64,000 bases of DNA from Streptomyces sp. NBC_01571 (GTDB lineage Bacteria; Actinomycetota; Actinomycetes; Streptomycetales; Streptomycetaceae). The DNA lies in assembly GCF_026339875.1 (NCBI RefSeq), contig NZ_JAPEPZ010000001.1:1798001-1862000 (forward strand). The letters run 5' to 3'. Under the pieces are notes generated by a model. It was not told where the DNA came from and made no database searches. It saw only the letters and a program-made list of their open reading frames with translations. Below are positions 9,801 through 63,527 of the stretch, piece by piece. Position 1 is the stretch's first letter, and every line of letters starts with the position of its first letter. Position numbers and translations under genes: made by a program.

Positions 9801-12462
9801 GCTCGGTCACGAACGCGGTGGTGGGCAACTCGATCGGCCGGGCCCCGGGCCACACCGCGGACCAGTCCGGACGGACCCCCTGCACATGCAGCTGCGCCAG
9901 CGCCCGGACCAGCTGGTCCAGTCCGCCCTCGTCACGGCGCAGCGTGTGCAGGACGGCGACCTCGGCGCCGATCGCATCCACCGTCTCCTGGGCGCCGGTG
10001 GCCACCACAGGGTGCGGGCTGACCTCCAGCAGCGTGGTGCAGCCGTGGCCGGCGAGTGCGGTGACGGCCTCGTCGAAACGGACCGGCTCGCGCAGGTTGC
10101 GGTACCAGTAGTCGGCGTCGAACGTGTCGTCGCCGTCGATCCACCGGCCCTCGACCGAGGAGAAGAACGGTACGGCCGGCGGGCGCGGGACCACCGGGGC
10201 CAGCGCGGCGCGGACCCTCTCCTGTACGCGTTCCACGTGCGCGCTGTGCGAGGCGTAGTCCACGTCCACCCGACGGGCCCGTACCCCCGCGGCCTCCAGC
10301 TCGGCGAGCAGCTCGTCCAGGGCGTCACCGTCACCGGAGACCACGACCGAGGAGGTGCCGTTGACCGCGGCCAGCGACAGCCGCCCGCCCCAGGCGCGCA
10401 GGCGTTCGCGGACCTGCTCGGCGGGCAGCGCCACCGACATCATGCCGCCGAGGCCGGACAGCTCCACCAGCGCCTGGCTGCGCAGCGCCACCACCCGGGC
10501 GGCGTCCGGCAGGGTCAGCGCACCGGCGACGTACGCGGCGGCGATCTCCCCCTGGCTGTGGCCGGCGACCGCAGCCGGGGTCACGCCCACCGAACGCCAC
10601 ACCTCGGCCAGAGCCACCATCATCGCGAACAGCACCGGCTGCACGATGTCGACCCGGTCGTAGTCCTGCTCGCCGCGCAGTACGGCGGTCAGCTCGAAGT
10701 CGACGTACGGCGCGAGCGCGGCCTCGCACTCGGCGATCCGGTCCCGGAAGACCGTGTTGCTCCCCAGCAGCCGCACCGCCATATCCCGCCACTGCGATCC
10801 CTGGCCGGGGAAGAGGAAGGCCACCGGACCGGGCGCTCCGGTGACGCCCTCCACCACCGTCGGTGACGGCCGTCCGGCGGCGACGTCGGCGAGTCCGGCC
10901 AGCAGTCCGTCACGGTCGGCGGCGCAGACCACGGCCCGGTGCTCGTGCGCGGTCCGCGTCGTGACGAGGGACGACGCGACGTCCCGCGGGTCCTGGTCGG
11001 GCCGGGCGGCGAGATCGGCGGCGAGCGCGGCGGCCTGGGCGCGCAGCCCTGCGGGCGACCGGCCGGACACGGCCCAGGCACACGGCCATGACTCTGCGGG
11101 CTCGATGCCGGGTGCCGGGGTGGCCGCCGCGGGCTCCTCCAGGATGACGTGCGCGTTGGTGCCGCTGACGCCGAAGGACGAGACGGCCGCGCGGCGCGGT
11201 TCGTCGCCGGCCGGCCACGGCACCGGCTCGGCCAGCAGCTCGACCGCTCCGGCCGACCAGTCCACGTACGGCGTGGGCCGGTCCAGGTGCAGCGTGCGCG
11301 GCAGCACCCCGTGCCGCATGGCCAGCACCATCTTGATGATCCCGGCCACGCCCGCCGCGGCCTGGGTGTGCCCGAGGTTGGACTTGATCGAACCCAGCCA
11401 CAGCGGTCGCGGGCGGTCGCCGCCGTACACCGCGAGCACCGCCTGCGCCTCGACCGGGTCGCCCAGCGGGGTGCCGGTGCCGTGCGCCTCCACCGCCGCG
11501 ACCTGGGCCGGGGTGAGGCCGGCGTCGACCAGGGCGTCCTGGATCACGCGGCGCTGCGCGGGGCCGTTCGGGGCGGTCAGGCCGTTGCTGGCCCCATCGG
11601 AGTTGACGGCGACGCCGCGGACGATCGCGTGCACCCGGCGGCCGGCCGCCACCGCGGCGGAGTGCCGTTCCAGCACCAGCACGCCGACGCCCTCGGACCA
11701 GGCGGTGCCGTCGGCAGCCGCCGCGAAGGGCTTGCACCGCCCGTCCGGGGCGAGCCCGCGCTGCCGGCTGAACTCGACGAACGCGCTCGGCGTGGCCATC
11801 ACGGTGACCCCGCCGACCAGCGCCATGTCGCATTCGCCGCGTTGCAGGGCGCGGACCGCCTGGTGGAGCGCGACCAGCGACGACGAGCACGCGGTGTCCA
11901 CGGTGACGGCCGGGCCGCGCAGCCCGAGCTGGTACGCGACCCGCCCGGACACGACGCTGCCGCCGCCCTGGGCGCCGTGGTAGTCGTGGTGCATCACCCC
12001 GGTGAACACCCCGGTACGGGTGTCCCGCAGCACCGCCGGGTCGAGACCGGCCCGCTCCACCGCCTCCCACGAGGTCTGCAGGATCAGCCGCTGCTGCGGG
12101 TCGGTGTACAGCGCCTCCTTCGGCGAGATGCCGAAGAAGCCGGCGTCGAAGGCCGGGGCGTCGTGCAGGAATCCGCCGTCACGGACCGTGGAGGTGCCGG
12201 GGTGGTCGGGGTCGGGGTGGTACAGCCCGTCCACATCCCAGCCGCGGTCGCGGGGGAGTCCCGTGATGCCGTCGCGGCCCTCGGCAACCAGCGACCAGAG
12301 GTCCTCGGGCGACTCGACGCCGCCCGGGTAGTGGCAGGCCATGCCGACCAGGGCGATCGGCTCGGCGGACCGGCTCTCCGCCTCCCGCAGCCGCCGGCGG
12401 GTGACCTGCAACTCCGCAGTGACACGGCGCAGGTAGTCACGGAGTTTGTCCTCGCTGCTCAT
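3835..12462 (-). CDS. Cis-AT type I PKS, two modules: KS-AT-DH-KR-ACP / KS-AT-ACP
   Basis: A 2875-residue PKS catalysing the last two polyketide extensions. Residues 1-31 form a charged coiled-coil N-terminal docking helix. Module A: KS (Cys192); AT (Ser636 in GHSQGE, YASH at 736-739, methylmalonyl type); DH (His938 in HxxxGxxxxP, with DACLH); KR (GASGTLG near 1343, LDD motif, B-type); ACP Ser1648. Module B: KS (Cys1876); AT (Ser2313 in GHSIGE, TAFH at 2413-2416, malonyl type); a KR remnant without a nucleotide-binding motif (about 2550-2720); ACP Ser2831. The predicted output is C(CH3)=CH followed by an unreduced beta-ketone, as needed for Dieckmann release. Both ACPs lack the usual Asp before the active Ser (GFGS, GLSS). 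A strong SD (AGGAGG, 12467-12472) precedes the ATG, which overlaps the upstream stop. Corresponds to KirAVI of kirromycin by order. Confidence 0.96.
6303..6401. repeat. Near-identical 99-bp direct repeat, copy 2 (KS of last module)
   Basis: This stretch encodes the KS region just after EAHGTGT, including [15 protein letters not shown]. It matches 11,355-11,453 with only two mismatches by eye. The surrounding KS sequence is much less similar at DNA level, which suggests local gene conversion or recent module duplication. Confidence 0.8.
11355..11453. repeat. Near-identical 99-bp direct repeat, copy 1 (KS of first cis-AT module)
   Basis: Partner of the repeat at 6,303-6,401. Both copies lie in frame in the same part of the two cis-AT ketosynthase domains, about 5 kb apart in the same gene. 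Confidence 0.8.
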
Positions 12463-15400
12463 CGGTCCTCCTGACCCGGTATGGGGCTGCCGAGCTCGGC
12501 GTCGATCAGGGCGAACACCTCGTCGTCGGTCGCGGTGGCGAACACATCCAGGGGCGCCTCGGCGGTCTCCGGGCTCAGGGCCGTGAGCAGCTCACGCACC
12601 CGTTGCACCACCCGGCCGCGAAACACCTCGTCGGTGGCCGCCCCGGTCAGGCCGGCGGCGAGGCGGTCGAAGTCGGCGAACAGCGCCGGCAGGTCGTCGG
12701 CCCCACCGGTGTCGCCGTTGAACCGCCCGGCGAGGTGCTCCACCAGATCGCCGGGGGTGGGATGGTCGAAGACGAGGGTCGCCTCCAGCGTCAGGCCGAG
12801 CGCCGCGCCGAGGCGGTTGCGGAACTCCACCGAGCTCAGCGAGTCGAAACCCAGTTCCTGGAAGGAGCGCCCCGGGTCGATCGCGGCGGCACCGGCGTAG
12901 CCGAGCACGGCCGCGGCCTCGCCGCGGACCAGGCCGGAGAGGTGAGCGCGCAGCTCCGCGGATCCCAGCCCGGCCAGGCCCGGGTCGGCGACGACGGCCG
13001 GTGCGGCGCTCAGCAGGCCGCCCAGTATCGGGGGGACGACCGCCGGGGTGTCCGGGCCCCACCGCAGCGCGACCACCTCCGGTTCCGTACCGGCCAGGGC
13101 GGCGTCCAGCAGGCGCAGTCCCGCCTCGGCCGTCAGCGGTGCGAGACCCGCGCGGGCCAGGCGTTCGCGGTCGGCGGTCATACCGTCGTCGAGGTCCCAC
13201 GGCCCCCAGGCCACCGAGACCGCCCGGCCACCTGCCGCGACCCGGTGCCGGGCCAGCGCGTCCAGATACGCGTTGGCCGCGGCGTAGTTGCCCTGGCCGG
13301 GCCCGCCGAGCACGCCGGCCGCCGAGGAGAAGAGCACCAGCTCGGCCTCGGGCAACAGCTCGTGGAGGTGGTGGGCGCCATCGGCCTTGGCCCGCCACAC
13401 GGTCTCCAGCCGGCCGGTGTCCAGCGCGGTCACCACCCCGTCATCGAGCACCCCGGCGGCGTGCACCACGGTGCCGATCGTCCGGCCGGCCAGCAGCGCG
13501 GCCAGCGCGTCCCGGTCACCGACGTCGCAGACGACCGGCTCGATCCGCGCGTTCAGCCCGGAGAGGCCCGCGGGGACGCGCCCGCTGCGGCTGACCAGGA
13601 GCACGTCGGTGAATCCGTGTTCGGCGACCAGGTGATGTACCACCGGGGTGGCGAGGCCACCGCTGCCGCCGGTGACGAGCAGCGTGCCCGGCCGGCGCGG
13701 CGGCGGCGCCTCGGTGGCCGGAGCGCGCACCAGGCGCGCCGCCAGCACCCGCCCGTCGCGGACCGCCAACTGCGGCTCGCCGGTGGCCAGGGCACGCGGC
13801 AGAATCTGCGCCGCGTCCTTCCCGGACAGCTCGACGAGACCGAAGCGGCCGGGGTGCTCGGACTGCGCCGAGCGCAGCAGCCCCCATGCGGCGGCCGTGG
13901 CCGGGCCCGGATCGGTGGCGACGAAGACCAGGCGGGCGCCGCCGAAGCGGGTCTCGCCGAGCCAGTGCCGGGCCTGGGCGAGGACGTCACGGGTCAGCTC
14001 GAACGCGGCGGACGCCGACGTCCCCGTCGCGGTGACCGGCACGATCACCACCTCGGCGGGTTCGGTCAGCGCCGCCGGAGTGTCGGCTCGGGTCACGGTC
14101 ACGTCCGCGGCGGTGAGCGCGGCGCCGATGCCGTCCCGGTCCGGGCCCACGACGGCGTACCGGCCGGGCGAGCCGGGACCGATGTCGTCGAGAGGCACCC
14201 AGTCGACGCGGTAGAGCGGGTCGGCCGAAGCTCCGGCGGGGCGCAGGGTCACCGCGTCCACCGAGGCGACCAGCCCGCCGGCAGCATCGGTGAGCCGCAC
14301 CGAGACGACACCGGGCCGGACCGGGGCGACGCAGGCCCGCGCGGCGACCGCGCCGCTCGCCGCGACCCGGATCGCAGACCAGGCGAACGGCAGGTGGGCG
14401 CGGCCGCCGGGGACGAATCCGCCGAGAGCCACCGCGTGCAGCGCCGCGTCGAGAAGAACCGGGTGCACGGCGTACGGGCCGGCGTCACCGCCGGGCACGG
14501 TGACGTCCGCGTACACGGTGTCGCCGGCCCGCCAGGCGCAGCGCAGTCCCTGGAAGGCGGGACCGTAGCCGGGCAGCCGGTCGTAGAAGCCGGTGAGGTC
14601 GAGTTCCTCGGCGTCGCCGGGCAGCGGTGGCGGCTCGGTCGCGACGCCACCTGCGGGGGCGAGCGCGCCCGTGGCGTGCCGGGTCCAGGCCGGTTCTCCG
14701 GCGGCGCGGGCGTGCACCTCGAAGGCGCACCGCCCGTCGTCGCCGGGCCGGGCCGCGGTGAGCCGCAGGTCGGCGTCGCCGAACGGCAGCGGCGCCTCGA
14801 TCACCAGCTCGGCCACGACCGGCCGGCCGAGCCGGGCGCCGGCCTGCAGGGCCAGGTCGGCGAAGAACGTGCCGGGCACCAGCGTGTTCCCGTCGACGGC
14901 GTGGTCGGCCAGCCAGCCGTGGCCGTCCCGCGAGATCTGGGCCGACAGCACATGTCCGCCGGGCAGCTCCACCAGGTCGGCCCGCGCCCGGCCGGGGTCC
15001 GTGCCGGTGGTCACCCAGTGCCGGTCCCGGGCGAACGGGTAGCCGGGCAGCGACAGCCGGCGCGCTCGCGCCGGCATCGGCGGGGCGATCTCGGCCCCGG
15101 TGACCCAGGTGGCGGCGAGCGCGTCGAGGTCGTCACCGGTCACCGCGGCGGCCGGTTTCCGCCGGCGGCCGCGGTGGCAGCCGACCCCGGTGCGCAGCGC
15201 CGTCAGGAGTTCGGCGTTGGTCGTGGCCACGACGGCGAGCCGCTCGTCCAGGTGCTCACGCCCGGACCACAAGGTGTACGCCAGCGCCGCCGGGTCCACC
15301 GCAACGGCGGCCGTGGGCAGGGCGGCGGCCAGGCCCTCGGCGGTGGTCTCGCCGTCGATCGCCGGGCGGGTTCCGAACACCGCCTGAACGCGGTGGGCGA

Positions 15401-18400
15401 GGTCGGCCAGTTGCGGGAAGTCCAGGCCCAACTCGGCGAACGGCTCGTCGGGCCGTGCCGCGGTCGCACCGACCTCGGTCAGCAGCGCGGTCACGGCCGC
15501 GGCCACGTCCCCGCCGGTGCCCTCCAAGTGGGTCACCAGCCGGGCCACGCTCTCGTCGAGGCGGGCGGTGTCCCGGGCGGACACCACGAACAGCCGCGGC
15601 TCGGTCGGTTCCGGCACGGCCGGCGGCTTCGGCCACTCGGCGAGGACGACGTGCGCGTTGGCCCCGCCGGCACCGAAAGAGCTGATCGCCGCGGTCCGCG
15701 GCGCGTCCGCACGTCCCGGCCACGGCGCCCGTTCGCGCTGCACCCGGAACCGAGCGGTCTCCCACCGCACCGCGCTGGACAGCAGGTCGGCGTGCAGGGA
15801 CGGGACGAGTTCCCGATGACGCAGTTGGAGTACGACCTTGGTGAGCGCCGCGACGCCGGCCGCGGACTCCAGATGCCCGATGTTCGACTTGACCGACCCG
15901 ATCGGCCAGGGGCCCGGGCCGGCGCCGATCCGGTCGAAGGCGTCCTCCAGCGCGGCGACCTCGATCGGGTCGCCGAGGCTGGTGCCGGTGCCGTGCGCCT
16001 CCAGGTAGCCGAGGTGGTCGGGGTCTACCGCGGCGCGCCGCAGCGACCCGGCGATCAGGGCGGCCTGCGATGCCGGGTTCGGCACGGAGAATCCGGCGGT
16101 ACGGCCGCCGTGGTTGACCGCGGTACCACGGATGACGGCGTGCACATGGTCGCCGTCCCGCAGCGCGTCCCGCAGCGGGCGCAGCAGCAGCACGCCGACG
16201 CCCTCGCCGGGCACGTAGCCGTCCCCGCCCTCGCCGAAGGCGCGGCAACGCCCGTCGGTGGACAGGAAGGAGGACTGGCTCAGCAGCAGGTACTTGTTCG
16301 GGTGCACGGCCAGGTTGACGCCACCGGCCAGGGCCGCCTCGCACTCCCCCTGCCGGATGGCCTCGACGGCCAAGTGCAGCGCGGTCAGCGAGGACGAGCA
16401 CATGCTGTCCAGGGCGATGCTCGGTCCGCGGAGGTCCAGGAAGTACGACACCCGGTTGGCGATCGACGCGCTGAACGACGAGGGCACCGGGCCCGGCTCC
16501 GCGCCGACGCCGTACAGCTGGTACTGGTTGTACATCACCCCGGCGAACACGCCGACGGACCGGCCGCGCCAGGCCGACGGCGCATGGCCGGCCTCCTCGA
16601 ACGCGTGCCACGCCTCCTGCAGGAACAGCCGCTCCTGCGGGTCCAGCACGGCCGCCTCGTTCGGCGAGATGTGGAAGAACCCCGCGTCGAACTCATCCAC
16701 CCCCGAAATGAACCCGCCCCATTTGCCGTACGAGCGTCCCGGCGTGTGGCGGTCTTCGGAGTAGATCGCCGCGTGGTCCCAGCGGTCGGCCGGCACCGTG
16801 CTGATGCAGTCACGGCCGTCGCGCAGGTTTGCCCAGAACTCGTCGAGGTCACGGGCCATCGGGTAGCGGCCGCTGATGCCCACCACGGCGATCGCGTCGT
16901 CGTCGGTGCCGACCGGCTCGGGGTCCGCCTGCGGCGGGGTGAACTCGGCCGTGATCCGGGCCGGGTCCCCGTTCAGGACCACGACGTGGGAGCGGCCGCT
17001 GCCCACGGCGGCCAGCAGTACGTCGACGGCGGCCGGGGTCTCCAGCTCCCGCAGGCCCATCCGGCGCAGCGCGGCGTCATCGACCGGCATGCCGCCTTCC
17101 GCCCAGGCCGGCCAGCCCACCGACACGATGTCGCGGCGGGTGCCGGCGAGCAGGTCCAGGTACGCGTTCGCACACGCGTAGTCGGCCTGCCCCGGATTGC
17201 CCCAGGTGCCGGCAGTGGACGAGCAGAGCACCAGGAAGTCCAGGCTCAGGCGCCGGGTGGCTGCCTCGAGGTGACGGGCGCCGTCGACCTTGGGGGCGAG
17301 CACCGCCCGTATGTCATCGGCCTTCTTCCCTGCCAGCAACCCGTCACGCAGCACGCCGGCGGCGTGCACCACCCCGTGCAGCACTCCGAAGCGGTCCACC
17401 GCGGTGCGCACCGCGCGGTCCACATCGTCCGCGCGGGTCACGTCCATCACCACGGTGACCGCCTCGGCGCCGAGGGCTGTCAGCTCGGCGGTCACGGACG
17501 GATCGGCCGGGGTGCGGCCGCCCAGGACGAGCCGGGCGTGCACCGACCGGGCCAGATGCCGGGCCAGGGCCAGCCCGACCCCGCCGAGCCCTCCGGTGAT
17601 CAGGTAGACGCCGCGCTCTCGCAGGGACGCCCGGTCCGCCGGTGCCGGCATGGGCCGGGCGAGTCGGATCCGGCGGGTGCCGTGCGCGTAGCGCACCTCC
17701 ACGTCCGGTGCCCCGGCCGCCAGTTCGGCCAGCGCGTCGGCCCGGCGTGGCGAACGGACCACCGCGGCCCGTATGCCCGGGTTCTCCCGCACCGCGGTGC
17801 GGAACAGGCCCGCGACAGCGGTGACCGGCGCGTCGTCGTCCTCGACGTGGCAGACCAGCCGCAGGGTGCTCCGCCCCGCGCGGATCGCGGCTGCCAGGAA
17901 CTCGCTCAGCGCGACCGCCTCACCGGTGAGGTCGGCCGGATCGGCGGGCTGCCACAGCACACCGGCCGCGGCGGTGTCCGCGAGCGCGGACGGCCAGTCC
18001 GCCCGGTTGTGCGCGCCGGTGGTGACCCAGTGCGTCTCAGGCACTCCGGGCGGCGGCAGCGCGGCCGTGTGCCAGTGCGCCTCGAACCACACCACCTCGG
18101 CGGGCACCTCGGTGTCGGCGGTCGTCGTGGTCTCGGCGGTCGTCTCGGTCACCGGTTCCGCGGGCGGGGTCGCCACGACCTCGTACTGCTGTAGGTGGTC
18201 GGCCAGCAGGGTGAACGTGTTGTGCTCGAACAGCAGGGTCGGGGAGAAGTCGACGCCGAAGACCCGTTCCAGGTCGGCGGCGATCCCCAGCAGCGCCGTC
18301 GAGTCCAGGCCGAGCTCGTAGAACCCTGCCGTCTCGTCGAAGTCGGCGCGGCCGGTCCTCGCCTCGATCAGCTCACGGACGATCCGGTCGCCGTCCTGCG

Positions 18401-19259
18401 CCGCCGGGGGGCGTGCCTCAAGGCGGGTGATCGCCGCGGCGTCCCGGATCCGTTTGGAGGTCAGGCCGTGCAGCCAAGCGACGACGGTCCCGTCCGGGGC
18501 GTGGAACTCCAGGTCACACGTGGTCAGGTCGCCGTCGGGCCCGGCCGGGCGCGGCGGGGTGGCGTGCACCAGGGTCTGCGAGCCCAGCGGTCCTGCGGCC
18601 CGGACCGATTCGATCAGCATCGGGATGTACGGGCGTGCCTCGTCGCCCGGCACGGCCTCGGCGAACTGGGTGGGCAGCAGCGTCGAGGAGTCCAGCGCCG
18701 CGGGATGGAGGTGGAAGTACTCGGCGTACTCGGCGGCCTGGGCGCTCAGCGAGAGGTCCGCTAGCAGTTCGTCCGGCCCGGCGTGCAGGGTGCCGAGGGC
18801 CCGCATGAACTCGCCGTGCTCGATACCGGTCGCGCGGACCGTCGTGTACAGGTCGGCCATGTCGACGGTCTGCCGTGCGGCGGCGCGCAGGGCCTCCAGG
18901 TCCCGCCGGCGCTGCGGGAACGGCAGGCTCAGGTACAGCTGGCAGTCCAGGACCGGTTCGCTCTGCCCGGAGGGGCGGCGGGTGCCGGTGACCGACACCC
19001 GGAAGTGCCCGTCGTCGCGGGCGAAGCGCAGCGTCAGCTCGGTGTCGAAGTCCGGCCCGGCGGCGACCGGGTTGCGGAACAGCACACGGCGCAGCTCGAC
19101 ACCGCCGGGATCGGCGCCCCGGGCTCGCACCACCCGCAGGATGATGTCGAGAAACGACACCCCGGGCAGGATCCGGGTGCCGTGAACACGGTGGTCGCGC
19201 AACACGGGGTCGCTGCCCCGGATCACGACGGTACAGGTCAGCCCGTCTAAGGAGTCCAT
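12459..19259 (-). CDS. Trans-AT PKS: DH*-ACP-KR / KS-DH-KR-ACP, with C-terminal docking domain
   Basis: About 2266 residues and AT-less. The N-terminal DH-like domain has His23 in [10 protein letters not shown] and Asp190, but the position four after the Asp is Leu194 rather than Gln/His. ACP Ser320 and a KR (GGLGGVG near 550) follow, completing the module whose KS ends the upstream protein. Then a trans-AT KS (Cys954) carries an ACP-like, Ser-less insert (about 1245-1315), followed by DH (His1453, DAALH), KR (GGSGGLA near 1860, LDD, B-type), ACP Ser2140 and a helical C-terminal docking domain of the kind seen in cis-AT PKSs. That domain should meet the coiled coil of the next protein. I chose ATG 19259 because GGGGAAGAG lies 6 nt upstream. 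ATG 19280, overlapping the previous stop (TGATG), is the alternative. Codon 4 is a rare TTA (19,248-19,250). Corresponds to KirAV by order. Confidence 0.94.
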
Positions 19260-19279
19260 CAGGTTCTCTTCCCCGCGCA

Positions 19280-22200
19280 TCAGAACTGGATCTGGAAGAA
19301 CGGCGCCGGCGGCGTCGGGCCGCCGTGGCGCCCGTTGCCGTTGGCGGAGGCCGGCACCGGCACGTCGAACCAGAACCGGCGCCGCCGATACCGCGGCGGG
19401 TCCAGCGGTTCACGCCGCGGGACATAGCCGTCCGGGGCCTGGCGCACCACCATGTGGGCGTTCGTGCCGCCGAAGCCGAACGAGCTGACCCCGGCCCGGC
19501 GTACGCCGTCCCGCGCGGTCCACTCCCGCAGCTCGCGGACCGGGAACAGCGGCGACCGGTCGAACTCGAAGCGCCGGTTGAGCGTCGCGCAGTGCAGGGT
19601 CGGCGGCAGTTGCCCGTGGTGCACCGACAGCACCACCTTGATCAGGCCGGCGATCCCGGCCGCACTGAGCGTGTGCCCGATGTTGGTCTTCACGCTGCCC
19701 ACACCGCAGAACCCGACCTCGTCGGTGGCGCCGCGCAGGACCTCGGTGAGCGCCTTCAGCTCCATCGGGTCGCCGATCATGGTGCCGGTGCCGTGCGCCT
19801 CGACGTAACCGAGCTGCGCCGGCGACACCTCGGCCGCGGCAAGTGCGGACTCGATGACCTCGCTCTGCGCCCTTGGGTTCGGCGTGGTGATGCCCATGGT
19901 GCGGCCGTCGTTGTTGACGGCGCTGCCCTCGATCACCGCGTACACCCGGTCGCCGTCGCGGATCGCGTCCTCGACCCGCTTGAGCAGCAGGGCGCCGACG
20001 CCCTCGCCGAGGACGATGCCGTCGGCGCGCTCGTCGAAGGTGTGGCACCGGCCGCTGGGCGACAGTGCCCTGGCGCCGCTCATGCCGACGAACGGCACTT
20101 CGTCGAGCAGGATCTCGACGCCGCCGGCGATCACCAGGTCGGACTCGCCGGTGCGCAGGCTCTGCGCGGCCAGGTGCACCGCGACCAGCGCCGAGGAGCA
20201 GGCGCTGTCGACCACCACGGCGGGGCCGCGCACGTCGAGGTAGTGCGAGAGGTGGGCGGCGATGAAGTTCTGCGCCATGCCGCTGATCGAGTGGGTCGTC
20301 GCGGCGGCATGGTGCGCGCCGAAGTTCGCCGCCCGGGCGCCGGCGAAGACCCCGACCCGGCGACCGGCCACGTCGGCGGGCGTCAGGCCCGCGTCGGCCA
20401 GGCACTCCGCTCCGGCCTCGAGGAACTGCCGCACCAGCGGGTCGACGTGGGCGGCTCCGGCCGGGTCGAGCCGGAAGAAGTCCGGGTCGAAGTCCTCGAT
20501 GCCGTCCAGGAATCCGCCCCACTTGCTGACGGTCCTGCCGGGCTGCGGGGCGGGGTGCCAGAAGCGATCGGCATCCCAGCGCGACGGCGACACCTCGGTC
20601 ACCGAGTCCACGCCGCCGACCAGGTTGCGCCAGAACGTGGCGTGGTCGGGCGCTCCGGGGAAGTGGGCGGCGATGCCCACCACCGCGATGCCCCGCTCCG
20701 GCTCCCTCACCCGCGCGAGTTGCGGCTCCGGCGTGCGCACCGGCTCCGGCTTCTCGGGCACCGGCTGATCCGGTAGCCGATCATCGAGGGCGGCCGCCAG
20801 CTGGGCGATGGTCGGGTTCTCCAGCAGCGCCGAAGGTTCGGCGACCACCCCGAGGTCACGTTCCAGCGCGGCGAGCAGCTGGGCGATCATGATGGAGTCC
20901 ACACCGAGGTCGGCGAAGTCGGCGTCGGGCCGGATCTGCGCGGCGTCCAGGCGCAACGTCGCCGCGAAGACCTCGGTGAGCCTTCGCACGCCGTCACCGG
21001 TCCGCATCCCGTACGCAGTGGGCGTGTCCGCGGCGGCGACCGGCGCGGGGGTCTCGGGCGCGGCGACCGTCAGGAGGGCGCCGGCGTCGAACCGGGTGGT
21101 GTCCACCAGGCACGGCAGCACGACCGGGTCGGGCCCGGCCAGCGCCGCGTCCAGCAGCGCCACGCCGTCCTGCGGGCTGAGCGTCCGCAGCCCCAGCTCC
21201 CGGTACGCCGGGGTGTCCACCTCCGGCATGCCGGCCGCCTGCCAGCTCGGCCACTGCACCGACCGGAAGACCGGCGTGTCGGTGCCGGTGGCGCTCCGGT
21301 ACTCGGCCACCCGGTCCAGCACCGAGTTGGCCAGCGCGTAGTCGCTCATCCCGGCCGCCAGCGCGGGCACCTGGCCGGCCACCGACGAGTACAGCACCAC
21401 GAAGCGCAGCGGGTCGTCCGCGCACGCGTCCAGCAGCGCCTGCAGGCCGGTGGTCTTCGGTTCCAGCACCCGCCGCATGTCGGCGGTGCGTTTGCCGACG
21501 AAGGCCGGGTCGGTCATCACACCGAGACCGGCGCAGTGCACGATCCCGGCGATCGGTCCCCACTCCTGGCGGATCAGGTCCAGCACCTCCCGGGCGTGCT
21601 CCAGCGGGACGCTCTCGATCAGCAGGCGCACCCCGGGGCGTTCGAGCGCGGTGAGGTCGCGCAGCCGGGCCGCCAGCGCCGGATCGGTGTCGGGCGCTGT
21701 CAGCAACTCCGCCCAGTTCTCGCGGGCGGGCAGCGGGGACTGCCCGAGCAGGACCAGCTGGTCCGCTCCCCGCTCGACGAGCTCGGCGGCCAGCAGGCGG
21801 CCGAGCGCGCCGGTTCCGCCGGTGATCACCACCGGATGTCCGGCGAGATCGTCCGACCACCGGGCGGGCGCCGAGGCGTTGCCGGTGGGACGCAGCGTCG
21901 GCGTGTACCGGGCGCCGTCACGCACGCACACCTCGGTGACCGGGTCGGTCGCCGCCAGCTCCGCGGTGGCCACGTCCCGCAGCGCGTCCGGATCCATGAC
22001 GTCGACGTCGACGGTACGGGCGAACACCCCGCGGTACTCGGCGGAGAGCATCCGGACCAGCCCCGCGAACGCCGCTCCTCGGAGCGTCGGGCTGTGCGCG
22101 CGGAAGGACACCAGTCCCTGGGTCATGTGCAGATACGCGAAGCCGGCGGTCCGGTTCGCCGTGATCAGCTCGCGGGCCAGCACGATGCGGGCCCAGTCGA

Positions 22201-25200
22201 CGCGTACGTCGGACACCGGCACCGCGGACAGGTCGACGAGGTCGATCACGACCGGCGCCCGGCCGATCGACGCGGCGGCCCGCAGACCGGTCTCCTCGTC
22301 CGTGTTGTCCAGGCGGACCACCCGGGCCGCGTCCCCGAACGCCGCCGTCGCCAGCGCCTCGGTCTCGGCCCGGACCAGGACCACCGGTGCGTGCGGCGCC
22401 GGCCCGGACGGTGCCGGCGCCGGTTCCCATGCCTTGACCAGCAGGCGTCGCGCATCGTCCGGCGGCGGCGGTGCGGACGGGCTCGTCAGCCAGTGCCGTT
22501 CCCGTGCGAACGGGTATGTCGGCAGGGAGGTCAGGGCGGGCCGATCGGTGCGCAGCGCGGCCCAGTCCACGGCCGCACCGTCCTGCCAGAGCCGGGCGAT
22601 CCGGTCGAGCCGCCCCTCCCGGGCCAGCCGGCGCAGGTAGCTGACGCCCTCCGGCTCGGTGAGCCAGTCGTGGGCGCCGGTCACGGTGGTCGCCTCGATG
22701 TCGCTGGCCAGGAAGGCGGCCAGCCGGTCCCGTAATTCGGCTACGGATGTGACGACCAGCGCCAGGCGCACCGGCATCGGAACGCGGCCCACCTGCGAGG
22801 TGTGGGCGAGTGAGGTGAGCGCGGGCTGCTGGTCGCCGAGGAAGGTCCAGTATGCCCGGGCGTACCGGTGCAGGGCGGCCTCGTCCCGCGCCGACAGCAG
22901 GAAGATCTCCGGCCCGGCCGGCTCCACCGGCGCGGACGTTGCGGGCGGCTCCTCCAGGACGACATGGGCGTTGACCCCGCCGAAGCCGAACGAGCTGACC
23001 CCGGCGCGCAGCGGCACGGGCGTGCCGTCGGCGTCGTTCGGCGCCCACAGCCGGGTCGCGCGGACCGGCTCGAACGGTGTGCCGTCCAGCTCGATCAGCG
23101 GGTTGAGCCGGGACAGATGCAGAGTCGGCGGCAGCTGTCGGTGCCGCATGGCCAGCACTACCTTGATCACGCCGGCTATGCCCGCAGCGGGCTCCAGGTG
23201 CCCGATGTTGCTCTTGACCGTGCCGATGCCGCAGGTGACCGCGGGCCCGGCGGCCAGCGTGCGATGGGCACGGATCAGGCCGTCGATCTCGACCGGGTCG
23301 CCCAGGGCGGTGCCGGTGCCGTGCAGCTCGACGTAGGACACCGTCTCGATCGGCACATCCGCGTCCCGATATGCCTCGACCAGCAGCTCCGCCTGCGCGA
23401 GCGGGTTCGGTGAGGTGAGCGACGAGGCGCGGCCGCCGTGGTTGACCGCGCTGCCGCGGATGACCGCGTGCACCTGGTCGCCGTCGGCGAGGGCCCGCGA
23501 CAGCGTCTTGAGCACGACGACGCCGACACCCTCGCCCTTGACGTATCCGTCGGCCCGCTCGTCGAGCGCCTTGCACCGTCCGTCGGGCGCGAGCACGCCG
23601 AGCTGGTTGCCGGCGACCACGGTCTGCGGGGACAGCACGAGGCTCACCCCACCGGCGATGGCCAGGTCGCTCTCCCCCGCGCGCAGCGACCGCACGGCGC
23701 GGTGCAGGGCGACCAGCGAGCTGGAGCAGGCGGTGTCGACGCTCTCGCTCGGGCCACGCAGGTCGAGCAGGTACGAGATGCGGTTGGCCAGCATGGTGCG
23801 GGCCAGACCGGTGCCGGCGTGAGCGTTGACGTGCTCGCCGCGCAGCACCATCGACTCGTAGTCGGTGAACTGCACCCCGGCGAAGACACACACCCGGCCG
23901 CCCGCGAGCCGGTCCGGGCGGCACCCGGCGTCCTCCAGCGCGGCCCAGGTGTGCTCCAGGAAGAGGCGGTGCTGCGGGTCCATGGCCTGCGCCTCGGCCG
24001 GTGAGATGCGGAAGAACAGCGGATCGAAGAGGTCCACGCCGGTCAGGAAGCCACCCCAGCGCGCGGTGCCGCCGAAGCGGCGGGCAACCTCCCGCCAGTC
24101 CCATCGGTCGGCGGGCGTCTCGGTGATCAGGTCCCGGCCGTCGGCGAGGTGCCGCCAGAACGATTCGAGGTCGTCCGCGCCGGGCAGCCGCCCGGCCAGG
24201 CCGATGATCGCGATCGGCTCGTGACCGAACGGATCCGCGGACCGCGAGCCGCTCGCGGGCACGGACACGCCATGCGGCACGGACAGCGGTGCGGGCGTGG
24301 GCTCGGCCGGTGCGAGTGCGGGGACGGGTGCCGACTCGGACCACGCGGGGCCGGACTCGGCCGGCGCGGACGCGGGCTCGGACGACGCGGGCGCGGACTC
24401 GGCTTGCGGAGCGACCGGGGCCGCCGGGGGCAGCTCGTCCGCCAGGAACGCGGCGAGCTTGGTGATCGTGTTGGCACCGAACAGCGTCGTCGTCGGCACG
24501 GTCACGTCGTAGCGGGTGGCCAGCGCCGCGGCCAGGTTCTGCAGGCCGAAGGAGTCCAGACCGTACTCGCCGAAACCGGCGTCCGGGTCGAGAGCGGTCG
24601 GGGCGATCCCGAGGATCTCGCAGATCAGCTCCCGGACCTGTGTGGCCAGTTCCGGGGGGACGACGTCGGCCGGCGCGACAGGCCGCGGCGGCGCCGGGAG
24701 GGCCGGCACGCCGTCATCGCGCAGGCGCATCCCGGCGACCAGATCGCGCATCCGGGCCGGGTCACCGGGCAGGACGGCCACCTGCGGGCGGTCCAGGCGC
24801 AGCGCCAGGTCGAGCGCCTGCTCGCCCTCGGCCGTCTCCAGGTAGCGGAAGCCGGTGCCGGCCAGGTAGCGGCGCTCGTCCTCGGTGTTCACGTGCATGC
24901 CGCCGGCTCGCCACATCGGCCAGTCCACCGACACGGTACGGCCGTGCCGACGGCCGGCGAGACGCTCCCGCTCCCGGAAGTCCGCGAACCCATCGAGGTA
25001 GCGAGCGCCGACCGCGTAGTCCACCAGGCCGTAGTCACCGAGCTGCCCGGCCAGCGAGGAGTACAGTACGAACAGGTCCAGGGGCAGGTCGCGGGTGACC
25101 TCGTCGAGCACCCTGGTTCCGGTGATCCGGGCGCGCAGGTGCGCCCGGAGCTCGTCGACGTCCTTGCCGGGAAGCGGGTTGCGCGACGCGGTGCCGGCCA

Positions 25201-28200: not shown

Positions 28201-31200
28201 AGCGGCGGGCGGTGTCGTGCGGATCCGCGCTCGGCGCGACCGGGGCGCCCGGTTCCGTGGTCACCACACCGGTCCAGCCCGCGGGCCGCCCGGCGAGGAA
28301 TGCGTCGAGCTGGTCGATCAGCTCGTCCGTGCGGTGGGCGACCACGGCGAGCCGGTGTGCCATCGCCTCACGCCCTATCTGCAACGTGTAGGACAGGCGG
28401 CCGAGGTCGATGTCCGCCGCGTCCGGCAGGGCCGCGGCGAGCTGTCGCAGGGTCGATCCGCTGTGCACGGCACCGGGGTGCAGGGCGGTGTCCCGCCCGG
28501 CCAGCCGCATGATCGTGGCGGGGTCCAGGCCGAGCTCGTCGAGCGGCTCGTCGACGGCGCCGACCGGCACCCCGGCGGCCGCGGCGATCTCTGCCAGGCC
28601 GGTCGCGCCCGGCTCGCCGCGCAGACGGCTCAGCATCCGCTCGACGACCCGGCGCAGCGCCTGCGCGTCGCGCCCTGAGAACGGGAACACGGCTGGCACC
28701 GGCACGACGCCGGGCCGCGGCTCGGCCCGGTACTGCTCGACCACCAGGTGGGCGTTGGAGCCACCGGCGCCGAAGGCGCTGACACCGGCGCGCAAGGGTT
28801 GCGGGCCGGTCCACGGCGCCGTCTCCCGCTGGACACGGAACGGGACGTTCGCCCAGTCGACGGCCGGGTTCAGCTCCTCGGCGTGCAGTGACGGCGTCAG
28901 CTCCCCGGCGCGCATCTGCAGCAGCACCTTGGCCAGGGCGGCGATGCCGGCCGCCGACTCCAGGTGCCCGATGGACGACTTCACCGAGCCGATGGCGATC
29001 GAGCCGGCCGGACGGTCGCCGAACGCCCGGGCCAGTCCGGCGACCTCGGCCGGGTCACCCAGCGCCGTGCCGGTGCCGTGCGCCTCCACGTACGACACGC
29101 CGGCCGGTTCGACGCCGGCGGCCCGCAGCGCGCTCGTGATGACCTCGCTCTGGGCGCTGGGGCTGGGCACCGCGTACCCGCCGGTCTTGCCGCCGTGGTT
29201 GACCGCGCTGCCGAGGATCACGCCGAGGATGCGGTCACCGTCGCGCTCGGCCGCGGCCAACGGCTTGAGCAGGACCGCGCCGACGCCCTCGCCGGGAACC
29301 ATGCCGTCGCCGCCGGCCGCGAAGCTGCGGCACCGGCCGGTCTCGCCGGTGAAGCCGCCGGCCGCGAGCTGCCGGTACTTGCGGGGGTGCGGGGTGAGGT
29401 TGACGCCGCCAGCCAGCGCGTAGTCCGCGCTTCCGCCGGCCAGTGCCTCGCAGGCCAGATGGATGGCGGTCAGCGACGACGAGCACATGGTGTCGACCGC
29501 CAGGCTCGGGCCGTGCAGGTCGAGGGCGTACGAGACCCGGTTGGCGATCGACGCGTAGCCCATCCCGCCGGCCAGGCCGCGCTCGTCCTCGAAGAGCTGG
29601 TAGTGGCCGTACATGACGCCGACGTAGACCCCGACGCGGCTGCCCCGGAGCCGGATCCGCGGGTAGCCGGCGTCCTCAAGGGTGTGCCAGGCGGTCTGCA
29701 GGAACAGCCGCTCCTGCGGGTCGGTCCGCTCCGCCTCGTGCATCGACATCTGGAAGAACCGTGGGTCGAACTCGTCGATGCGGTCGAGGAAGCCACCCCA
29801 CCGGCTGACCGGTGTGCCGTTCACCTCGGGCGCCACCGGCGGATCCCAGCGCCCGGCCGGCACCTCGCGGATGCAGTCCCGCCCGGTTCGCAAATTGCTC
29901 CAGAACGCGTCGAGGTCGTCGGCGAGCGGGTACCGGCCGGCCACGCCGATGACGGCGATCCGGGTGTCCGCGGCGGGCGCCGTCTCCGCCGGCCGTCCGG
30001 CACGCTCGGTGACCACGGCCGGCGCGGGCCGGGGCTGGTCGGGTACGAGGGTCCGCACGCTGTCCGGATACCGCTCGACCAGGTAGTCGGCGACTTCACG
30101 GATGGTCGGGCGTTCGAACAGCAGAGTGGTCGGCAGATCGCCCATGCGTTCGGCGAGCAGGTCGGCGATCCGGGGCACGGTGAGCGAATCGACCCCGAAG
30201 TTCTCGTACGTCTCGTCCAGCCACAGCCGGTCCCGGGGCACCTGGAGCACCTGGACGAACGCGTCCTTAACATACTCACGGGCGGCCTCGACGAGCCGGT
30301 CCGCGCCGCCGGCGTGCGGCTCCGCCGTGGGTGCGGCGACGGGCGCCGGCCCGGCCGGGCCGGTCTCCGCGACGACGACGTGCTGGGTGAGCCCCTCGTC
30401 GGCGGGGAACGCCCGGCTGCGGGCGAATCCGGCCAGGTCGAGCGCGGTGCGCCAGCCGGGTGCGGACAGCAGCGGCGAACCGGGCAGGCGCAGGCCGGCG
30501 TCGCGGTGCAGCCACCAGCCGTCGAGCAGACCGAAGGTGAGCGTGGCGGTGACGACGTTGCTGGTGGCCTCGTTGAGCACCAGTTGCCCGCCGGGTTTGA
30601 GCAGCGTCGCGACCGCGCGCAGGGTGTGCGTCAGGTCCGGGGTGGCGTGCAGGACGTTCGCCGCGACCACGATGTCCGCGCCGCCGGGCGGGAAGCCCTG
30701 CGTGAGGGGGTCGCCGGAGATGTCAAGCTGCTGGAAGCGCACCATCGGGTAGCGCTCGGCGAACCTCTGCCGGCCGTGCTGCAGGAAGGCGGGCGAGATG
30801 TCGGTGTAGACGTACGTCAGTTCCGCGCCGGTGGCGGCCAAGGCGGGCAGCAGGCTCGCGGTGGTGCCGCCGGTTCCGGCGCCGACCTCGACGACCGTGA
30901 CCGGTCCGCCGAGCCGGCCCACCCGGTCCAGCAAGGCGGCGACCACGAGTTGGTTGGCGCGGTCGACCACCGGGCTGCCCCGGTACGCGCCCTCCACCAG
31001 CTCCGTGGATCCGCCGGGGAACATCACCTCGGTCGCGCGGACGGTGCCGCGGAGCACCCCGAACAGGTGGTGCATGCAGGGCCTGAGCAGCCGGTCGATG
31101 CGGTTCAGTGCGGGTTGCCCTTCGCAGAGCGCGACCAGCTCGTTCTCCGGGTCAGTGGGGGCCGGGCGGTCCGTGGCGGTCAGCGCGCTGCCGTCGTCGT

Positions 31201-41200: not shown

Positions 41201-42830
41201 TCGCCGCGGCCCACGCCGGATTCGCCGAGGGTTCGCGCCAGTGCGTGCACCCGCCGGGCCAGTTCGCCGTAGCTGGTGGCACCGTCGGCGTCCACCACCG
41301 CGACGCGCTCCGGGGCCGATGCCGCGCGGGCCAGCACCAGGCCGGCCGCGGTCACGTCGCGCGGCCGGGCGACACGGGTGTCGTTGGCCCGGTCGACAAG
41401 GGCGCGTTCCGCCGCGGTGATGAGGGGCAGATCGCCGATCGGCCGGCGCGGATCGGCGGCCACGGTTTCCAGCAGCAGCCGGTAGTGCTCGGCCAGCCGG
41501 TCGGCCGTGGCCGGGTCGAACAGGTCACGGTCGTACTTGAGGTAGACCAACGCCTCCGACCCGCGCACCACCACCTCGACGACCAGCGGGTTCTCACCCT
41601 CCTGGGTCAGTTCGAGGGCGTCCTGGAAGACGGTCTGCCCGGCGGCCATGTCCTGGTCGCCGCCGACGCCCTGTTGCAGGTAGAAGCCGATGTCGAAGGA
41701 GACCGCGGCGCCGCTGGCGCGGCGCAGGTCACCGACCACGGCGGCGAACGGGTAGGAGCTGTGCTCCTCGGCCTGCGCCATGTGGTCGTGCACGGCGGTC
41801 ATCAGCTCGGCGAGGCTGCGCTGCGGGTCGCAGTCGATCCGTACCACCACCGCATTGATCAGGTACCCCACGGTGCGGTCGAACCGCTCGGAGATCCGGC
41901 CGTCGGTCGGCACCATGACGCTGATGTCGCGGTGGCCGGAGTGCCGGTGCAGCAGTGCGACGAAGGAACTCAGCAGCACGCTGAACGGGGTCAGCCCGGC
42001 CGCTCCTGCGACCTGGCGGAGGGCCGCCCAGGTCGCCTCCGGCAGCCGGAACTGCACCATCGCGCCGGTGTCGGTGGTGGGCGGCTCGACCCGGTGCCGA
42101 TCGGTGATCGCGTCGAGGACCGGACCGCTGGAGGCACCGGCCAGCTGGTCGAGCCACCAGCGGCGGTGCTTCTCGGCCTCCGGCCCGTCGAGCAGTTCCT
42201 GCTGGCGACGGACGAACTCGCGGTACGGGGTGGCCGGCTCGACCGGCGGCAGAACGCCTCGACCGGCCAGTGCGTCGTGGCAGGCCACGATGTCGCGCAG
42301 CAGCAGGTGGCTGGAGATCCCGTCGGTGATCATGTGGTGGAACACCAGGAGCAGCAGTGTCCGGCCACCGGGCGCCGCGATCAGCCACATCCGGTGCAGG
42401 GGGTCGTGCTCCAGGTCGAACGGGGTGTGCACCAGGCGCCGGATGCGCGCGGCGAATTCCCCGTCGGTGACATGCCCGAGGTCGAGCCGGACCACCTCGG
42501 CGGGGCGCTCGGTGATCTCCTGCACCGGCGTGGTCCCGTCCAGTCGGACGGCGATCCGCAGACCCGGCTGCCGCTCCACGACGGCGATCAGGGCCCGGGT
42601 GAGCACGTCCGGGTCGATCCCGTCGCCCAGCCACAGCCCCAGCGGCAGGTTATAGGAGGTGGTGCCGGGCCGGCTCGCGTGGATCGCCCAGAGCGCCGCC
42701 TGGCCGCGGCTGAGCGGGTACGGCCCCGGCTCCGGTGCCGGAGCGGTCAGGCCGCGCAGCAGCGACTCGGCGATCTCGTCCGGCAGCTCACCGGAGGCGA
42801 CCGCGGCGAGGACGTCGCGCAGTGCCGGGC

Positions 42831-42834
<4 letters not shown>
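38242..42834 (-). CDS. NRPS-PKS hybrid: C-A-PCP-KS (glycine-type A domain)
   Basis: A 1530-residue hybrid that should insert an amino acid in mid-chain. The C domain has HHMITDG at 166-172. The A domain (about 500-960) has YTSGSTGRPKG, NMYGPTE, YRTGDLARW and NAKID; by-eye pocket residues D-I-L-Q-L-G-M-I-W-K match known glycine codes. The PCP has Ser1030. The KS (Cys1266 in [26 protein letters not shown]) stops directly after the GGSNVHVVV strand, and its flanking subdomain begins the next protein. The start ATG overlaps the previous stop (ATGA). The open frame extends upstream only as a shadow of the previous gene. A TTA codon occurs at residue 772. The order C-A(Gly)-PCP-KS in mid-assembly line matches KirAIII, where glycine forms the amide linking the two elfamycin halves. 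Confidence 0.95.
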
Positions 42835-55922
<13,088 letters not shown>

Positions 55923-55948
55923 GTGTTCTCTCCCGGTGGTTTCGCAGC

Positions 55949-58900
55949 TCAGCGGTGGGAACGGTCGAGCGCGGCGGCCGCGACCGGCGTGACGGTGAGA
56001 TCGAGGCGCGCCGACCGGACCGGTGTCGCGGCGGGGCGGGCGGGTCTCGTGGGGATCTCGGCGCGGCGAGGCCAGTACCGGCGACGCCGGTACTCCGGTG
56101 CCGGGAGCGGAGCCCGGCCGGTCCCCTCGGGCGTGCCGGGGCCGAGTACGACGTGGGCGTTGGTTCCGCCGAATCCGAAGGCGCTGACCGCGACTCGGCT
56201 GCCGGCGGGCAGCTCGGTCGTCGTACGCGCGGGGAAGAACGGTGACTCGGCGAACGCGAACCGCGGATTGGGCCGCTCGCAGTGCAGGGTCGGGACGATC
56301 AGCCCGTGCCGGAGCGTCTGCACGGCCTTGATGAATCCGGCGATCCCGGCCGCGCTGAGCAGGTGTCCCATCGAACTCTTGACACTGCCGATCCCGCAGT
56401 ACTGCTGGTCGCCGGTGTGCTGCCGGTAGACGGCGGTCAGCGCCTGCAACTCGATCGGGTCGCCGATCATCGTGCCGGTGCCGTGCGCCTCGACGTAGCC
56501 GATGGTGCGGGCGTCGATGCCGCCGCGGGCGAGCACATCGGTGATCAGCGCCCGCTGGGCGTGCCCGTTCGGGGTGGTGTGGCCCATCGTGCGGCCGTCG
56601 TTGTTGACACCGGACGCTTCGATAACCGCGAGGATCCGGTCGCCGTCGCGTTCGGCGTCGTCGAGACGCTTCAGCATCACGAGCCCAGCGCCCTCACCGG
56701 GGACGAAGCCGTCGGCGGACTCGTCGAAGGTGCGGCAGCGTCCGGTGGGTGACAGCGCCTTGCCGGCGCTGAGCATCAGATACGGCTCCTCGTCCAGCAG
56801 CAGGTCCACGCCGCCGGCCAACGCCATCTCGGACTCGCCCAGCATCAGACTCTGCGCCGCCAGGTGCACGCTGACCAGCGCCGACGAGCACGCGCTGTCG
56901 ACCACGAGGTTCGGCCCGGCGAGGTCGAGGAAGTGCGACACGTGCGCCGCGATGTAGTTCTGGTTGATCCCGACGATGGACTCGCGGGTCAGCGGCCGCA
57001 GGTGTTCGCGGTGGTTGCCGGTCCGGCCACCAACGAAGACGCCGACTCGGCGGCCGCGCAACTCCTCGTCGGTGTACCCGGCGTCGCGGACGCACTCGAC
57101 GGCGACCTCCAGCGTCTTGCGCACCAGGGGGTCGAGCTGCCGTGCCGTCTCGTCGTCGAAGCCGAAGTAGTCCGGGTCGAACAGGGCGGCGTCGTCGAGG
57201 AAGCCGCCCCACCGGCTCTGGCTGAACCCGGGGCCGCCGTCCGGTCGGTAGAGCGCCGTGGTGTCCCACCGATCCGCCGGCACGTCGCCGACCATGTCCC
57301 GCCCGGCGAGCAGTGCCTGCCACAGCTGTCCCGGGTCGGCGGCGCCGGGCAGCCGGCAGCCCGTCCCGATGACCGCGATCCGCATCGGCGCGCCGTCAGG
57401 GGCGGGCGTGCGCGCCGGCGCGGCGGACGCCACCGGGCCGGTGGCCGAGGCGGGCACCCCTGCGGCGGTGAGCGCGGCGGCAAGCCGGGCCAGTGTCGGA
57501 TGCTCCTGGAGCAGGCTGGGATCCACGACGTCGCCGAGCGCCGCCTCCAGATCACGGACCAGCTCGGCCATCAGCAGCGAGTCCACGCCGAGGTCGACGA
57601 GGCGGGTGTCGGGCCGCAGCAGGGAACGTTCGGTGCGAGTAGTCCGGGCCACCACGTCGGCCAGCCAGTCGATGCCGGCCGGCTCCAGCTCATCCGCCGG
57701 GGCGACGACCGGCGCCGGAGCCGTCTCGGGGGCACGCCGCGGCGCCCGGAACAGCTCGTCGGCCGGTACTGCCATCCGGCCAGTCAGACAGGGCAGCAGA
57801 ATCGGTTCACCAGGCACCCGCAGCGCCAGGTCAAGCAGACGCAGCGCGTCGGCCTCCGCCAGGTCGGGGATGCCCAGCTCGTTCCCGGCGCTGGTGCGCC
57901 GCTCGCCCATCCCGACGTCCCGCCAGAGCGGCCACCGCAGCGACCGGACTACGCACCCGGGCTCTTCCGCGTGCGCCTCGGCGAAGTCGTCGAGGACGTT
58001 GTTGGCCGCGGCGTAGTCCAGATAGCCCCCGGCCAGCCGGGGCGACCCGGCCGCGATCGAGGAGAACAGCACCATGAGCCGCGGCAACCGGCTGCCGAAC
58101 GCCGCCCATAGTGTCTCGACGGCAAGTTTGGGGCGTAGCACGTCATCGATCTCGTCAGCCGTCTTGGCCAGGAACGACCGGGGTCGGCGCATGACCCCCG
58201 CGCAGTGGAAGACCGCCGCGATCCCGTCGGCGCGGCCTCGATGCCGGTTGATCAGCCGGCGCAGCGTAACCACGTCGTTCAGCGCATGGGTGTGGACGGA
58301 AAGCTTCACGTCCCGTTCGGCGAGGGCCAGCAGGGCGGTGAGGCGCGCGCGCAGCAGCGGGTCGGTCGACGGATCGGCGACCAGGGACGTCCAACGGTTG
58401 CGGGCAGGCAGCTCGGAGCGACCGATCAGGACGAGGTGCCGCGCGCCCCGGTCGACCAGGTGCTCGGCGAGGCGCAGGCCGATCCCGCCAACGCCCCCGG
58501 TGATCAGAACGGCGCCCCGGTCCAGACCGGTCAGCGGGTCGAAGTCGCCGGGCTGGGCGAACCCGGCCACGCGGCGCCGCCGCCGGGAGCTGGTGTACCG
58601 GATCTCGGTCTCCTGGTCGTCGGCCGTACTCTCGGCCGCGACCGCGGCGGCCAGGTCGGCCAAGTCACCGTCGACCCGGACGGTGCGGGAGATCACCGTG
58701 GGCAGTTCTCCGGAGACGGCACGGTAGAAGCAGGCCAGCGCCGAGCGGCGAGCGCCGCTGATGTGCAGACAGCGCAGGCCGGTACGCGGATACCGGCTGA
58801 GCACCTCGCGCAGTGCCTCAATCCGCTCGGTGACCAGCGCGCCCGGTTCTTTCCAGTCGACCAGATCGGCGACGCCGGTCAGGCCCTGCACGGCGGGCAG

Positions 58901-62908: not shown

Positions 62909-62959
62909 CGGACCCCACCGGCCACGCCGGAAAACCCCCGACGTGATCGCTCGCGACCC

Positions 62960-63460: not shown

Positions 63461-63527
63461 GGGCGGGGCGGCGATGATCGTTCCAGAGGCCGCTTCCTCT
63501 GTCGTGCGGCCGTGGAGGCGGTAGGAC

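Follow-up and report, generated by a model that had tools for sequence, protein, structure and literature searches.

Two type B dehydrating bimodules, most likely of one ancient origin, in a kirromycin-type assembly line of Streptomyces sp. NBC_01571

Results

The window, that is, the whole stretch of 64,000 nucleotides of Streptomyces sp. NBC_01571 analysed here, belongs to a genome of 11.5 Mb and contains a PKS/NRPS line with 14 KS domains, all genes of which lie on the minus strand. The line consists of protein A (61900-55949, 1983 aa), protein B (55922-42831, 4363 aa), protein C (42834-38242, 1530 aa, C-A-T-KS), protein D (38242-19280, 6320 aa), protein E (19259-12459, 2266 aa), protein F (12462-3835, 2875 aa), and an NRPS C-A protein from 2782 on. 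Two integrated AT domains were found, both in protein F, and none was among the Pfam families listed for proteins A to E. Residues 23-281 of protein A (61058-61834) matched the LnmK-family acyltransferase/decarboxylase model (TIGR04098, 189.5 bits; cut-off 100); this domain, fused to the start of the first PKS, is a probable loading domain. Upstream of the first PKS gene, at 62770-63969, a Mutator-family transposase fragment (PF00872, frame residues 179-267) was observed.

The genomic neighbours downstream of the line were PhyH, an ADH/CCR-like gene, two P450s, an AT, a methyltransferase, and a tandem AT. The kirromycin cluster is described with these downstream gene types in the available part of PMC5818483, and the accessible text of the aurodox paper (PMC9361827) names matching tailoring gene types. 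Because the gene types downstream are those of the kirromycin cluster, we assigned the window to a kirromycin-type cluster, the agreement being one at the family level and not with the kir proteins themselves. The organization of the line pointed in the same direction: as in the kirromycin PKS of Streptomyces collinus Tu 365 and the aurodox PKS of S. goldiniensis, the genes are in the order AI-AVI plus NRPS, an NRPS module follows the fifth KS, and cis-AT domains are confined to the last PKS protein, AVI. Over the 760 residues searched, protein E shared 97% identity with a protein of Streptomyces anulatus and 92% with one of S. collinus. Two extra DH domains, present in the kirromycin line too, are already remarked on in the excerpt of the aurodox paper (PMC9361827).

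The original prediction held that one cassette occurs twice in this line and spans a protein boundary each time. Indeed, the same domain order and break point were found at both junctions, in the form KS-KR-ACP-KS // DH*-ACP-KR-KS; all features of the two copies given below are on the minus strand. In copy 1, KR-ACP-KS2 ends the 1983-aa protein and DH*-ACP-KR-KS3 starts the 4363-aa protein. The copy is opened by KS1 of module 1 (59153..60688; KS HMM, Pfam PF00109), which is followed by the first-half KR of this module (57869..58780), showing LPARNRW...STDPLLRARL in the alignment and having 5ktk_A (PksJ) as its best PDB match (E 4.2e-34), and by the ACP of module 1 (57464..57682, located by HMM). 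The KS2 core (56153..57397) carries DPLVR and keeps Cys-His-His, and a tail of 67 aa (55952..56152) leads to the protein end. On the next protein lie DH* (55077..55922; HRVHGVRTLP and HPALLDGSTM), the ACP of module 2 (54807..55028), placed before the KR of this module (53643..54422), and the KS3 core (52053..53411; DPQER), which would receive the copy-1 product. The flanking region of KS3 contains a Ser-less ACP-like insert (51843..52037) without a Pfam PP-binding match. At 56363-56380 of KS2, KS(S/T)MGH was observed beside the catalytic His in 12 of the 13 copy-1 orthologues, most other KSs having Asn there (KTNIGH-like); the exception was Saccharopolyspora NFXS83 (L028), in which Asn is retained.

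In copy 2, KR-ACP-KS11 ends the 6320-aa protein and DH*-ACP-KR-KS12 starts the 2266-aa protein. KS10 (22697..24232) opens this copy, followed by the first-half KR of module 10 (21182..22105; LPARENW...DTDPALAARL in the alignment; best PDB match 5ktk_A, E 1.8e-54), the ACP of module 10 (20780..20998), and the KS11 core (19454..20707), again with DPLVR and with Cys-His-His kept, after which a tail of 57 aa (19283..19453) remains. Beyond the break are DH* (18432..19259), the best PDB sequence match of which was 5kku_A (E 5.6e-36), the ACP of module 11 (18186..18398), again before the KR (17052..17858), and the KS12 core (15540..16910; DPQER), the candidate receiver of the copy-2 product. The Ser-less ACP-like insert in the flanking region of KS12 (15312..15512) reached 16.2 bits with Pfam PP-binding, below the cut-off of 20.8.

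The peculiarities that had been predicted for both copies were confirmed in the window; throughout, a pattern match rather than a curated alignment was used to read the DPxxR motif, the D+4 residue, and the Ser position. Of the 14 KSs, just two, KS2 and KS11, have DPLVR in place of DPQQR, and both retain CSS, HGTGT, and the His of KSSMGH/KTNIGH. Neither DH* has Gln or His at D+4 (residue 194 of copy 2), where copy 1 has Met and copy 2 has Leu; Gln or His was read there in three of the four other DHs of the line, the fourth being unreadable by motif. The ACP precedes the KR in the second half of both copies, and by alignment the stretch LPAR..W...TDP.L.ARL occurs in the KRs of modules 1 and 10 among the 11 KRs. 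The Ser-less insert, which had been predicted for the next KS, was present in KS3 and KS12 but is not confined to them: a third one, outside both bimodules, was found in KS8 (28421..28606, minus strand; Pfam PP-binding 20.4 bits, just below the cut-off of 20.8). Cognate domains of the two copies clearly outscored the remaining domains of the line (for DH*, 153 versus 42 bits).

A type B dehydrating bimodule is defined, in the part of PMC8456789 that was available, as KS-KR-ACP-KS//DH-ACP-KR with two elongating KSs and a DH removing two waters to yield a 2E,4Z diene, and kirromycin is counted there among the PKSs having dehydrating bimodules. Both copies show this domain order and the protein break between the second KS and DH, and the retained Cys-His-His suggests that KS2 and KS11 are elongating. 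The DHs grouped with type B DHs and retain the catalytic His and Asp. In the PDB, DH* and the first-half KRs were closest to 5kku_A and 5ktk_A, respectively; 5kku_A was the closest solved DH by sequence, and the KRs scored 121.6 and 188.5 bits with 5ktk_A (PksJ) versus 54.9 and 80.4 bits with the next-best chain. We take these two chains to be the DH and KR of Wagner et al. 2017, in which the type B dehydrating bimodule was reportedly described, 5kku presumably being the difficidin DH and the KR of 5ktk_A presumably coming from a type A unit. In the alignments, 5ktk also has the LPxR..W stretch, as LPPREEW. The copies thus share with the type A bimodule (hangtaimycin HtmA1; bacillaene) a first-half KR with LPxR..W and a KS/DH split; they differ from it in retaining the catalytic His of the second KS and in having a separate KR in the second half, and type A was rejected on these grounds. 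Unlike the usual type B case, two such units stand within one assembly line, and an ACP-like insert, missing from many other members of this class, is present in the downstream KSs. Both units are of a known type in a known kind of cluster.

The tails before the break, 67 aa after KS2 and 57 aa after KS11, lack a flanking subdomain and resemble the DHD docking tails at KS/DH junctions, which the accessible part of PMC9113145 describes as roughly 70 aa after the KS. The position after the KS and the absence of the flanking subdomain are shared with the DHD tail of gladiolin GbnD4/GbnD5 (same source). Unlike the gladiolin tails, those of the window are somewhat under ~70 aa, and their binding to DH is putative.

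We also examined how far these features spread in the class, using 80 loci taken from named genomes together with the two window copies, with DH* obtained in 80 of the 82. These loci span several phyla, mostly Actinomycetota, and lean towards the kin of the window because the DH patterns were built from the window, P0047, and P0042. The break between KS and DH* was present at 66 of the 69 loci with an upstream KS. None of these 69 KSs had DPQQR; the motif was DPLVR in 24, DPLQR in 16, DPLAR in 9, DPAVR in 7, DPAIR in 6, and another or none in 7. Gln or His was absent from D+4 in all 76 readable DH* (4 unreadable), the downstream KS had DPQER in 72/72, and both ACP and KR followed DH* at 69/80. 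Of the 65 first-half KRs, 29 contained exact LPxRxxW, compared with none of the 72 second-half KRs and 3 of the 104 remaining KRs. Since the peculiarities are class-wide, they mark the type of unit and are no evidence for copying within the line, as which the original prediction had taken them.

As for the inserts, their four-helix carrier fold agrees with an acyl carrier protein, and the phosphopantetheine Ser is absent. Among the fetched loci, a long insert was seen at the same place in 51 of the 208 KSs with a flanking subdomain (this subdomain was located by HMM, and none was found in 72 of 280 KSs), and no Ser was present in the 46 readable inserts, one of which has Thr (5 of 51 unreadable). 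With an ACP HMM built without the inserts, those of KS8, KS3, and KS12 gave 6.2, 5.9, and 14.5 bits in searches of whole proteins, and the cut-out inserts of KS3 and KS12 gave 13.4 and 21.3 bits. The Ser-less insert resembles an ACP fold in degenerate form, set within the KS flanking region. A literature search for a Ser-less carrier domain in a ketosynthase found none in the portions of the sources available, which is not proof of absence.

The relationship of the copies was then judged from seven domains, namely the first-half KR, its ACP, the second KS, DH*, its ACP, the second-half KR, and the downstream KS. In this order, the copies are 41, 47, 53, 38, 32, 55, and 57% identical to each other, and the best of 20 unrelated loci gave 38, 43, 58, 38, 45, 49, and 59% with copy 1 and 44, 49, 57, 38, 45, 51, and 58% with copy 2. 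Only the second-half KR is clearly closer between the copies than to strangers; for copy 1, the first-half KR and its ACP are also slightly closer to copy 2. The first-half KR of copy 2 matched the PksJ KR better (188 bits) than it matched that of copy 1 (129 bits). Both copies were present in 12 fetched genomes of Streptomyces, Micromonospora, and Saccharopolyspora, and each window copy was 76-78% identical to its own Micromonospora rubida orthologue over the concatenated domains. In three others (L013-L015) the copy-2 type alone was fetched, which says nothing on an absence of copy 1.

In the tree of the seven concatenated domains (34 rows drawn from the 60 loci having all seven, window copies included; near-duplicates and cut contigs were excluded from the trees), the two copy clades were sisters with a support of 97/98 and a short stem of 0.099. 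When the sampling was widened to 43 rows, including 13 homologous proteins without the pre-break half and omitting the short ACPs, the support was 97 by SH-aLRT. The six sampled pairs branched in the same order in each clade, and therefore the copies separated before the sampled elfamycin clusters did. The original prediction had proposed trees of KS2/KS11, DH*, KR, and the post-DH KS as a check; of these, the second KS (89/79; 40 rows from loci or the window, with 6 further KSs of the window added), the downstream KS (84/90), and the first-half KR (48/88) paired the copies, weakly, and the trees of DH* and the second-half KR did not resolve them as sisters, nor had a first DH-only tree. The support was 90 for the pre-break half and 55 for the post-break half. 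In AU tests on DH, a clade of copies 1 and 2 alone was rejected (p 0.0001), whereas it stood with p 0.53 when the homologous proteins P0154 and P0157 were counted into it; for the second-half KR, the two copies as a clade without these proteins gave p 0.0685. P0154 and P0157 group with copy 1 and have the domain order of the 4363-aa protein, exactly in P0154 and with one extra MT in P0157. They branch outside the named copy-1 orthologues, a placement hinting at a wider elfamycin-like family.

Discussion

We conclude, with a probability of about three in four for the whole explanation including the products and the shared ancestry, that the line is a kirromycin-type (elfamycin) trans-AT PKS/NRPS in which two dehydrating bimodules of type B occur. 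The KS that closes the upstream protein, KS2 or KS11, would extend the chain once more and pass it on via its DHD-like tail. On the following protein, DH*-ACP-KR would reduce the new keto group and DH* would eliminate two waters, so that an alpha,beta-E, gamma,delta-Z diene results. Copy 1 would thereby make the dienyl end of the molecule and copy 2 C12=C13 and C14=C15, the latter probably being spent when a KirOII-type P450 closes the tetrahydrofuran ring. The double dehydration and its geometry are assigned to these two units by analogy with the class. The prediction of E,Z-diene makers is consistent with the type B assignment and its 2E,4Z product (available text of PMC8456789), and less so with the accessible part of PMC3940840, according to which type B bimodules are able to give E or Z bonds; the geometry is therefore uncertain even by class.

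The products were placed by counting 14 KS modules on what we take to be the kirromycin skeleton. Its terminal dienyl unit is presumably a 1E,3Z-pentadienyl made by modules 1 and 2, i.e., copy 1, and the Z bond nearer the starter would fit what a type B unit should make. By the same count, modules 10 and 11 lead to C12=C13 and, provided that two waters are lost, also to C14=C15, and modules 12 and 13, each with its own DH and KR, lead to C10=C11 and C8=C9, respectively. The original prediction, in which both sites correspond to an E,Z-diene of kirromycin, was thus off register, copy 2 falling on C12=C13/C14=C15, the latter of which is absent from mature kirromycin. This register requires module 8 (KS8-ACP) to extend the chain. 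Module 8 (27836-29977; protein D residues 2756-3469) was observed to have KS8 and an ACP and no KR or methyltransferase; the skeleton, as we assume it, needs an OMe-bearing carbon and a methyl at this position, and these functions may be borrowed or act in trans.

According to the available part of PMC5818483, kirromycin carries a 15-OH, and the kirOII-deficient product is without 15-OH and 16-OH. In this region mature kirromycin has its tetrahydrofuran ring, along with 15-OH and 16-OH, so that C14=C15 has to be consumed. In the delta-kirOII product of S. collinus the tetrahydrofuran ring is missing, the number of oxygen-bearing carbons is lower by three, and NMR shows a new tetraene; the authors ascribe ring closure to C14/C16 hydroxylation and, in this text, say nothing of where the fourth alkene comes from (same text). 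This tetraene agrees with what double dehydration by copy 2 predicts, the link to copy 2 being our own. Alternatively, copy 2 may dehydrate only once, with its first-half hydroxyl staying as the 15-OH and the tetraene arising as a shunt dehydrated off the line; the 15-OH reported for kirromycin (PMC5818483, as available) could be supplied by the KR of module 10, and the activity of DH* is itself a prediction from sequence. We regard this as rather improbable because copy 2 has the full domain architecture of type B, together with the features typical of DH* in this class, and in view of the NMR-assigned tetraene lacking 15-OH (same partial text). That copy 2 directly makes an E,Z pair inside the mature triene, as the original prediction, with an E,Z-diene at both sites, would have it, is very improbable, because C10=C11 falls to module 12 and C8=C9 to module 13, and copy 2 reaches only C12-C15. 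We more tentatively entertain the combined idea that copy 2 of elfamycin lines makes a sacrificial Z C14=C15 for tetrahydrofuran oxidation and that the Ser-less domain gates or docks the transfer of the 2,4-dienoyl chain into the receiving KSs; taken as a whole, it is less likely than not.

With regard to origin, the predicted copying of one unit is upheld in part. The copies look like distant sisters (97/98 and 97), and one ancient duplication is most likely the better reading, though not a proven one; it is not recent, as the identities of 32-57% indicate, and alternatives stand in the AU tests. Any duplication is older than the sampled elfamycin clusters, and the copies have evolved apart since. 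The two bimodules might instead have been recruited independently from a pool of trans-AT module blocks and not be closest kin, block exchange being frequent in trans-AT PKSs (PMC7930024, available part). Joining either copy to the Nocardia/Paenibacillus-type group was rejected neither for copy 2 (p 0.233) nor for copy 1 (p 0.203), these tests and the half trees having also been run without the short ACPs; furthermore, the second-half KR tree places copy 2 with a Nocardia/Pyxidicoccus group (86/76), and the identity between the copies is mostly no higher than that to unrelated lines. We nevertheless consider two separate acquisitions unlikely, if a serious competitor, since the concatenated trees unite the copies, both KS trees and the first-half KR tree pair them, if weakly, and the second-half KRs are 55% alike versus at most 51% and 49% to the 20 unrelated loci. 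A recent duplication in this line or its near relatives, with the likeness kept by gene conversion, would explain the matching domain order, break point, and motifs. It is scarcely credible, as the motifs are class-wide, each copy is far closer to its M. rubida orthologue (76-78%) than to the other copy, and the clusters branch in the same order in each copy's clade; it was dropped, the domain identities showing no near-identity tracts.

Taken together, a single ancient duplication of a type B unit remains the preferred reading, and the motifs that split bimodules have in common point to the class they belong to, not to copying within a line. The carbons assigned to the second unit are corrected, and a published but unassigned tetraene is tied, as proposed above, to one particular pair of enzymes. 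Both the proposed double dehydration and the way in which the tetrahydrofuran ring originates thereby become directly testable in a laboratory Streptomyces.
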